From contig CACYSI010000030.1 in the NCBI GenBank assembly GCA_902776975.1, forward strand, positions 1 through 38,521: a stretch of DNA of 38,521 bases, given 5' to 3'. Source of the DNA: an uncultured Ruminococcus sp. (GTDB lineage Bacteria > Bacillota > Clostridia > Oscillospirales > Acutalibacteraceae). A program made the translations under genes and the position numbers. Under the pieces are notes generated by a model, which had not been told where the DNA came from, did no database searches, and saw nothing but the letters and a program-made list of their open reading frames with translations. The first letter of the stretch is position 1, and each line of letters begins with the position of its first letter. Shown here piece after piece: positions 34,118 to 35,974 of this stretch.

Positions 34118-34146
34118 TCATATCCCCCTTATGCCTCTCATATAAT
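34118..34146 (+). promoter_or_regulatory. Sigma-E-like sporulation promoter
   Basis: TCATATC (34118-34124, 6 of 7 to KMATATT), 14-bp spacer, CATATAAT (34139-34146, 7 of 8 to CATACAHT). No good sigma-A -35 is found at the right distance. Transcription would begin near 34153. Confidence 0.6.
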
Positions 34147-34166
34147 GAGATTAGTATAAGGGGGAT
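34122..34166 (+). promoter_or_regulatory. Hairpin able to hide the SleC pro-region ribosome binding site
   Basis: Perfect 11-bp arms ATCCCCCTTAT (34122-34132) and ATAAGGGGGAT (34156-34166), with an inner TCTCAT-ATA-ATGAGA. The right arm includes the AAGGGGG ribosome binding site of the gene starting at 34171. No T-run follows. Confidence 0.75.
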
Positions 34167-34170
34167 TATT

Positions 34171-34638
34171 ATGTACAGAGATTATTTGAACAGCCCGACT
34201 ACGCCGGCGGATATCTATCCTCAGCCGCGCACGGTGCCCAAGGGCGAGACTCCTTTCAGAGACGAGTACGAGGAGTATATACAGGCTTATCCCGGCAGAG
34301 GTACTCTCAAGGTGCAGATCAGCGTAGCCAGAGGCGCTTTCCCGATGAAAAACGTGCTTGTGGATGTTTCTCAGATCTACAACGGAGTGCGCTACAGCTT
34401 GTATAACGATGTAACCGATATATCGGGCATAGTAGATAACATGGTGCTGCCGGCAAGGTCTATCGAAAGCACGCTCAACTATGATACGGCTCAGATACCC
34501 GAGGCAGAGTATCTTGTCACGGTATTTCATCCCGATTTCAGAGAGCTTACCGATTGCTCGGTGATAATCCACGATAAGACCGAGACCATACTGCCGGTCA
34601 CGCTCGTACCGCTGACAGGGGAGGATAAGGATGGCTGA
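34171..34638 (+). CDS. SleC pro-region-like protein (separately encoded)
   Basis: A 155-residue protein with no signal peptide or membrane segment. Residues about 41-150 (GRGTLKVQISVARGAFPMKN; VDNMVLPAR; AEYLVTVFHPDFRE; ILPVTLVPL) look like a small beta-sandwich of the carboxypeptidase-regulatory type. They resemble, in order and spacing, the N-terminal pre-pro region of clostridial SleC (LTVSIIDATNNRPI; VTGLVLPAP; YTAVVTAPGY). In SleC that region is joined to the lytic domain and removed by Csp proteases during germination; here it is its own gene. AAGGGGG precedes ATG 34171 and the last 8 bases overlap the next gene. The SleC match is from memory, not a search. Confidence 0.65.
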   Translation: MYRDYLNSPTTPADIYPQPRTVPKGETPFRDEYEEYIQAYPGRGTLKVQISVARGAFPMKNVLVDVSQIYNGVRYSLYNDVTDISGIVDNMVLPARSIESTLNYDTAQIPEAEYLVTVFHPDFRELTDCSVIIHDKTETILPVTLVPLTGEDKDG

Positions 34639-35974
34639 TCTGCCCGTTATACCGTCATTTATCACCGTGCATCTCGGAGCGCCTAACTCACAGGCTGAGA
34701 ACGTGACTGTCCGCTTCACGGATTACATCAAGAATGTAGCGTCGTCCGAGATATATCCCACATGGCCTCAGGCGGCTTTGAGAGCTAACATACTCGCCCA
34801 GATATCCTATACTCTTAATAAGGTGTATACCGAGTTCTATCCCAGCCGCGGCTATGACTTTGATATCACTAACGATACGCGCTATGACCATGCCTACACC
34901 AAGGACGGCGAGGTCTTTGATACGGTGAGCTTGATAGTGGACGAGATTTTCAACAACTATATCCGACGCAAGGGAGCTGTAGAGCCGCTTGCCGCCAAGT
35001 TCTGTGACGGAGTCCGCACACAGTGCAACGGACTTTTGCAGTGGGGCAGCGTAGAGCTGGCTGACCAAGGCTATACCACGCTCGATATCCTGCGATACTA
35101 CTACGGCGATGATATCGAGCTGGTCGAGAACGCTCCCTTAGCAGATAAGACTCCGTCATATCCCGGTACTGCGCTGTCGCGCGGTTCCTTCGGCGATGAT
35201 GTCAGGATCATTAAAAACGAGCTTAACCGTATACGCCGCAACTATCCCGCTATACCTGAGATAAACGGCTCTACATCGGTATTTGACGGCGAGACACAAG
35301 AGGCTGTCAAGAGCTTTCAGCGTATATTCAACCTTACTCCCGACGGAGTTGTGGGCAAGGCTACATGGTATAAGATAAAACAGATATTCGCCTCGGTAAA
35401 AAGGCTCTCGGAGCTCACCAGCGAGGGATTGACCATACCCGAGATCGAGCGTGTGTTCAAGACAGAGCTGAGCATCGGCGACTCAGGCGTCGAGGTCGAG
35501 GCTCTGCAGTATTATTTGGCGTTTCTCGGTTACTTTTATCCTCAGCTGCCGCCTATACCTATCACGGGCTTCTTTGACGAACTTACCCGCGACGCAGTGT
35601 TCACCTTTCAAAGCGAGTACGGACTGCCTGTTACCGGTGTTGTAGATATCGGTACATATTATCGGATAGAACGTGAGTACAAGAACGCCGTAGCCGATCT
35701 GCCGGCAAATTATCAGAGCGCTATAGGCGAGCCTTACCCGGGTCGGTTCCTTGTAGAGGGCGACAGGGGAGAGGAGGTGCGGGTCATCCAGACTTATCTC
35801 AGCCGCATCGGGCGCATAGACCCCGATATCCCCGAGATAACCGCCGACGGCATCTTCGGTCCTCTGACCCGATCCGCCGTCATAGCTATCCAAAAACAGC
35901 TCGGAGTAGAGCAGAACGGAGCGATAGGACCCGTAGAGTGGGTAGAGATAATCACCCGTGGAAATAATATTTGA
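34631..35974 (+). CDS. sleC: SleC-like spore cortex-lytic enzyme with three peptidoglycan-binding domains
   Basis: A 447-residue protein. Residues 8-165 closely resemble the SleC lytic transglycosylase domain (SpoIID-like): DYIKNVASSEIYPTW (31-45) with the probable catalytic glutamate E40, LRANILAQISYTLN, RGYDFDIT, LIVDEIFNNYI, and CDG...QWGS and ILRYYYGDDIE. Then three PG_binding_1 domains follow at about 182-250, 279-347 and 373-441, whereas C. difficile SleC has one. SleC breaks down spore cortex at germination. No pro-region is present at the N-terminus; it is encoded by the overlapping upstream gene. GGGGAGG (34618-34624) lies 6 bases before ATG 34631, so this is a real start. No signal peptide is visible. 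The serine protease that activates SleC elsewhere (Csp) is not in the window. Confidence 0.82.
   Translation: MADLPVIPSFITVHLGAPNSQAENVTVRFTDYIKNVASSEIYPTWPQAALRANILAQISYTLNKVYTEFYPSRGYDFDITNDTRYDHAYTKDGEVFDTVSLIVDEIFNNYIRRKGAVEPLAAKFCDGVRTQCNGLLQWGSVELADQGYTTLDILRYYYGDDIELVENAPLADKTPSYPGTALSRGSFGDDVRIIKNELNRIRRNYPAIPEINGSTSVFDGETQEAVKSFQRIFNLTPDGVVGKATWYKIKQIFASVKRLSELTSEGLTIPEIERVFKTELSIGDSGVEVEALQYYLAFLGYFYPQLPPIPITGFFDELTRDAVFTFQSEYGLPVTGVVDIGTYYRIEREYKNAVADLPANYQSAIGEPYPGRFLVEGDRGEEVRVIQTYLSRIGRIDPDIPEITADGIFGPLTRSAVIAIQKQLGVEQNGAIGPVEWVEIITRGNNI

Follow-up and report, generated by a model that had tools for sequence, protein, structure and literature searches.

The window, a stretch of 38,521 nucleotides from an uncultured Ruminococcus sp., contains two overlapping genes on the forward strand that are predicted to encode the cortex-lytic enzyme SleC in two pieces. 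The first gene (34171..34638) encodes a protein of 155 residues, assigned as the SleC pre-domain by a profile match to PDB entry 9h68, an AF2 model and Foldseek. The second gene (34631..35974) encodes a protein of 447 residues corresponding to the mature form of SleC, with a catalytic domain followed by three PG_binding_1 repeats (Pfam and alignment to 9h68). Read as open reading frames, the two genes lie in different frames and share the eight bases ATGGCTGA (34631..34638, forward strand), which contain the stop of the small gene and the start of the large one; an overlap of this length is common to the window and its four nearest Ruminococcus-like records. The SpoIID-like lytic transglycosylase domain of SleC spans residues 1-169 of the large protein (34631..35137; Pfam and alignment to 9h68), and the three repeats are encoded at 35192..35374, 35486..35665 and 35765..35932, all on the forward strand. 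Shine-Dalgarno-like sequences with 5-nt matches are present at both starts. The initial annotation had described the two reading frames with their overlap, a start and ribosome binding site for each, and three PG-binding domains, all of which we find in the window.

Upstream of the small gene, a motif match on the forward strand (34118..34146) gives the sequence TCATATC-N14-CATATAAT, which we call promoter-like on the assumption of the sigma-E consensus. In the window, as in its four nearest relatives, the element CATAYAAT is found approximately 28-32 nt 5' of the small-gene start. A scan of 127 of the 133 split loci found sigma-E-like sites in five, against 1.0 expected and a shuffle maximum of 6, which is no significant enrichment; the start codons chosen by the script may have cost some sites, and a close match seen by eye at the same place in locus L140 was not counted. 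The same region contains a strong hairpin (34122-34166; minimum free energy -26.8, z -5.1), the 3' arm of which includes the Shine-Dalgarno sequence AAGGGGG of the small gene. Similar hairpins are present in L139 and L142 and absent from L140 and L141. The gene 5' of the hairpin resembles carboxynorspermidine decarboxylase (named by eye), and the hairpin is perhaps the terminator of this upstream gene, with the promoter-like CATATAAT in its loop.

SleC is by far the best match of the large protein in the PDB: from residue 3 onwards it can be aligned to residues 215-476 of the chain in 9h68, the pre-pro form of C. difficile SleC, with an E-value of 1.2e-74. Pfam detects the SpoIID domain above the cut-off, together with the three PG_binding_1 stretches. 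Glu40, which we take to be the catalytic glutamate of SleC, is invariant in 34 aligned rows. The start of the large protein aligns with VLDNPVVPEF of 9h68 (approximately residue 156), which is presumably no more than a few residues from where mature classical SleC begins. The window's pair shares with the SleC proteins of C. difficile and C. perfringens the SpoIID-like catalytic domain, the conserved glutamate and a following PG-binding domain. It differs in the number of PG-binding repeats, with three in the window and one in the classical fused relative that was scanned; four other split proteins scanned have three or two. By eye, we found no signal peptide or membrane segment in either protein of the pair.

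The small protein has no Pfam family above the cut-off and no NCBIfam match, and no YpeB family is among its Pfam matches up to an E-value of 1. Searched as a single sequence against the PDB, it gives a weak match to 9h68 (E-value of 0.055), and its identity was therefore settled by a profile search: a profile built from 39 split small proteins matches residues 60-173 of the 9h68 chain with an E-value of 8.1e-18. The AF2 model (pLDDT 81.8) has a mostly low-confidence N-terminus (residues 1-26), a helix at residues 30-39, a transthyretin/CnaB-like β-sandwich at approximately residues 42-144, and a short tail. In a Foldseek search with this model, the four chains of 9h68 occupy ranks 1-4 (E-values of 6e-7 to 3e-6; TM scores of 0.56-0.58 by query length), ahead of transthyretin, CnaB and carboxypeptidase-regulatory folds. 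Because of the profile match and the Foldseek ranking, we identify the small protein, at the level of sequence and predicted fold, as the SleC pre-domain; the pre-domain fold is the same as in the SleC proteins of C. difficile and C. perfringens.

In classical SleC, the pre-region, the pro-peptide and the mature enzyme are parts of one polypeptide, whereas the window has separate reading frames. According to the accessible text of PMC6464247, YabG cuts C. difficile pre-pro-SleC after R119 during sporulation, and the C. perfringens enzyme is cut after R114; processing of SleC by YabG is also described in the accessible part of PMC10681294. The pro-peptide is removed at germination in a Csp-dependent step (PMC3567191, available part). 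The initial annotation had taken the small protein for the pro-region removed by Csp, and in this respect it has to be revised. The small-protein profile ends at approximately residue 116 (counting the tag in 9h68 as 57 residues), just before the YabG cut, which identifies the small protein, by alignment, as the pre-region and not the pro-peptide. The stretch between the end of this profile and the start of the large protein corresponds in the 9h68 alignment to the pro-peptide, with the motif HTLYGxxPPKIPE. This pro-peptide linker is absent from the split pair in alignments with SleC, and the motif is absent from the small protein of the window. Scored in a simple form, the motif occurs in 28 of 31 fused SleC proteins of the classical type and in one of 133 split pairs; the 13 long fused relatives all lack it. 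Thus, as judged by these alignments, the Csp-sensitive part of SleC is missing from the split pair, and the window's pair differs from classical SleC in lacking a PPKIPE-type motif.

We then consider how widespread the split is. Among 150 genomes of the window's family, 70 have a match to the catalytic domain. The 79 matching rows comprise 68 full loci, three fragments at contig ends and eight weak matches (E-values of 2.6e-5 to 6e-4), and we analysed the full loci. Of these, 55 are split and 13 fused, and a pre-domain reading frame lies just upstream in all 55 split loci. In a sample of 391 genomes of the class, where three of the genomes with a strong match belong to the window's own family, we analysed 70 of 72 strong loci, leaving out a fragment in G471 and the locus G376:C1:379995. 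The pre-domain is present at all 70; it is a separate upstream reading frame in 39 loci, from 11 family codes, and in frame in 31. Finally, we examined named loci in GTDB species genomes. These were the 80 highest-ranking of 586 confirmed relatives, ordered by likeness to the window's split protein; as the best matches to a split protein, they demonstrate that the split exists but are no measure of its frequency. The script scored 78 of the 80 as split, and reading the frames revealed a separate pre-domain reading frame in the other two. In L173, the pre-domain reading frame ends approximately 400 nt upstream of the large gene. The split is found in isolates, among them Clostridium methylpentosum DSM 5476, Flintibacter muris DSM 110149, Pseudoflavonifractor capillosus An827 and P. 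phocaeensis An901.

These data bear on the trivial explanation that the two genes result from a frameshift or an assembly error in a one-piece SleC gene, or are joined into one product by programmed frameshifting. An 8-base overlap could arise from a frameshift, but a separate pre-domain reading frame is present in all 80 named best matches, isolate genomes included; the junctions of 78 split loci fall into all three phases (33/25/20); a Shine-Dalgarno match of 5 nt or more stands before the large gene in 58 of these 78, where approximately five would be expected; and the pro-peptide region is missing altogether. The probability of this explanation is negligible in our estimate. Conservation of the split across the family, class and named loci rules out a frameshift or assembly error, and the varying junction phase rules out programmed frameshifting. 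The claims of the initial annotation that SleC is naturally split, that a simple frameshift is not responsible, and that the small protein resembles the N-terminal part of SleC have therefore held up, and the split that it suggested looking for in relatives is common in both genome samples.

Purifying selection acts on both genes in the close relatives that we compared. Over the ten pairs formed by the window and four relatives, dN/dS ranges from 0.07 to 0.17 in the small gene and from 0.04 to 0.15 in the large gene; the ratios of pairs that include the window are rough, as dS exceeds 1 in these. In many genera the two halves have remained adjacent. A mirror-tree comparison gave a correlation of r 0.58, which shows co-inheritance only. 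Among the papers listed by literature searches on title and the start of the abstract, in a collection that holds few subscription journals or preprints, none describes a split SleC, and neither do the accessible parts of PMC12880746 and PMC3533761. Going by its gene structure, the two-gene SleC is a variant beyond the known one-piece form.

A quick maximum-likelihood tree was calculated from 136 rows, using the catalytic domain and the first repeat; two genomes that occur in the family as well as the class sample had been removed beforehand. A single branch separates all 92 split rows from the rest (SH-aLRT 96, no bootstrap), and the split requires one change on this tree. Given that the split rows form one clade, one ancient split suffices. 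The fused rows comprise 31 classical SleC proteins (clade A) and 13 long multi-repeat relatives that we call clade B as a label, the tree not establishing their monophyly. Clade B is nearer to the split clade than clade A under midpoint rooting, the root itself not having been inferred. Its members have a homologous pre-domain and catalytic domain with multiple PG-binding repeats and, like the split pairs, lack a PPKIPE-type motif; unlike the window's form, they are encoded by one gene and lie outside the split clade. As the motif is missing from all 13 of them, Csp control may have been lost before the split occurred.

According to the accessible part of PMC12880746, Csp is placed in the Clostridiaceae, Lachnospiraceae and Peptostreptococcaceae. 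We scored Csp by a single marker, the CspB prodomain family PF18425, which has no match in any of 14 control genomes. Two PF18425 proteins adjoining fused sleC genes match the NCBIfam model CspBA with E-values < 1e-138, under the model cut-off. The marker is present in six of 150 family genomes and 21 of 391 class genomes, and was not found in the window's own genome, another point of difference from classical SleC and one that, together with the near-absence of the pro-peptide motif from split pairs, speaks against the Csp-removed peptide of the initial annotation. Sorted by the form of SleC, the marker occurs in 26 of the 29 genomes that encode the classical protein, compared with none of 88 with the split form only and one of six with clade B only; the two genomes with both split and classical SleC have it. 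This association rests on one evolutionary contrast (a test of independent pairs had a single pair), so that the small p-values of Fisher tests, which ignore relatedness for the Csp and the SleB/CwlJ counts alike, mean little. YabG (PF05582) is not found above the cut-off in any of the 150 family genomes, where there are two weak matches below it, nor in the window's own genome. As YabG is missing also from the family genomes that carry Csp, its absence is no marker of the split.

The pair might also be a peptidoglycan hydrolase of vegetative growth or mother-cell lysis and not a germination enzyme, which we consider very unlikely. In favour of such a role are the putative status of sporulation in the window's organism, the lack of a GerB permease match in its genome (at an E-value of 0.001), the absence of the Csp marker there, and the coexistence of clade B with classical SleC in six genomes, which implies that relatives of SleC can serve other purposes. 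In support of the germination reading, the genome encodes one GerA-family protein and has one SASP match, at a contig edge, as well as two matches of the SpoVAC type. Against a vegetative or lytic role stands, besides the PDB match to SleC, the presence of a GerA-family protein, which may be of the GerAA or the SpoVAF subtype, in all 63 SleC-bearing family genomes, though it is found in 137 of 150 overall. In eight family genomes (L126-L131, L134, L137) the gene immediately downstream of the split pair belongs to the GerA family, a further point against this role, and the one GerA-family protein found in the window's genome is of the subfamily of these eight (38-47% identity, compared with 23% to two GerA-family proteins of another kind). 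Among the named loci, none of 72 with enough flanking sequence has a GerA-family gene directly downstream, and three GerA-family matches are located elsewhere.

The distribution of the other type of cortex-lytic enzyme also argues against a non-germination role. The SleB/CwlJ catalytic domain is found in 84 of the 150 family genomes and is rarer in those with SleC (18/63) than in those without (65/85), counts that are uncorrected for relatedness; G096 and G105, which have only SleC fragments, were left out of the latter group. The domain (Hydrolase_2) was not found in the window's own genome or in 36 of 52 family genomes that have only split SleC. The one other genome of the window's genus in the family sample (G074) has a SleB/CwlJ-type domain and no SleC match. 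SleC and SleB/CwlJ-type enzymes may replace each other even within a genus.

How, then, might a split SleC be controlled? Models of spore germination are based on C. difficile and C. perfringens, where Csp cuts SleC, and on Bacillus, which uses SleB and CwlJ; to our knowledge, little is known about germination in many uncultured gut and rumen clostridia. Spores with split SleC probably control the enzyme differently from those with the Csp-activated one-piece form. The pre-domain has long been retained as a separate gene, even though it is cut off in one-piece SleC, which suggests an independent function. Survival of the enzyme and the pre-domain as two genes, with the Csp marker and the Csp-removed peptide both missing, turns the purpose of the pre-domain into a testable question.

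The reading to which we give an even chance is that two-gene SleC consists of a mature enzyme and a dedicated partner acting in trans, a design like that of SleB/YpeB that would not be activated by Csp. We infer that the mother cell would make the already mature enzyme and the pre-domain protein from one mRNA during sporulation, and that the two would be co-translated. The pre-domain protein would be an obligate partner, instead of a piece cut off a zymogen, and may serve in folding or stability, in delivery to the cortex or coat, and probably in masking the enzyme. At germination, the enzyme would be released or licensed without cleavage by Csp, either because the partner is lost or rearranged or because the enzyme gains access to the expanded cortex. 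SleB and YpeB of Bacillus are alike in design, being a mature lytic transglycosylase and a partner encoded in the same operon (PMC13393411, accessible part), but they are not homologous to the split pair by the family scans that we made. The window's overlapping genes and its gene for the mature form would be compatible with such a design, in which the enzyme would need its partner for stability. The available text of PMC13393411 states that each of SleB and YpeB is needed for incorporation of the other, and that YpeB is thought to hold SleB off. When the two proteins of C. methylpentosum were tethered and folded as one chain (pTM 0.54), the model could be aligned with 9h68 over 411 columns in sequence order (E-value of 5.5e-39), but did not reproduce the domain placement of 9h68 (r.m.s. 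deviation of 18.7-19.3 Å; TM scores of approximately 0.35/0.48).

The mutual dependence of SleB and YpeB (PMC13393411, in the part available) is also in line with a partner that does no more than chaperone the enzyme or target it for incorporation into the spore, in which case access to the cortex or the state of the cortex, and not the partner, would restrain the enzyme. This possibility, which seems to us rather unlikely, draws further on the long N-terminal extensions of many split pre-proteins. Among 83 of 131 split pre-proteins that have extensions of at least 15 residues, 34 contain an amphipathic-looking motif similar to IEKYKRELM (shuffle mean, 0.5), which resembles an anchor or a helix for docking. 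However, 48 of the 131 have nearly no extension, a clear motif is absent from the small proteins of the window and its nearest relatives, and the fold search does not tell an inhibitor from a chaperone.

In many split pre-proteins, for instance L042, L072, L148, L182 and L202, the motif is followed by a long low-complexity linker. Such linkers would be compatible with removal or degradation of the small protein by a germination protease other than Csp, so that control would still be proteolytic but exerted on the partner. There is a precedent in YpeB, which is degraded by HtrC and others (accessible part of PMC13393411). The protease search covered the Csp and YabG markers, and we judge this mechanism to be unlikely.

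A broader version of the partner-in-trans reading can be put forward tentatively, with less confidence than the reading itself: SleC as a pair of enzyme and inhibitor, with a release unrelated to Csp, might constitute a lineage-wide germination switch without a protease and zymogen, and might replace Csp/SleC and SleB/CwlJ in many Ruminococcus, Flavonifractor, Pseudoflavonifractor and related gut bacteria. If this were true, a mature cortex hydrolase would be held silent in the dormant spore by its partner. The split could also be used to recognize Csp-independent SleC in genomes, and so to predict which bacteria do without the bile-acid/Csp route.

At two fused loci, a Csp prodomain shares a single open frame with the pre- and catalytic domains of SleC, a natural Csp-SleC fusion: L272 (G316:C1:61500-65700) encodes 1080 residues and L276 (G394:C1:1044200-1048500) encodes 1067 residues.
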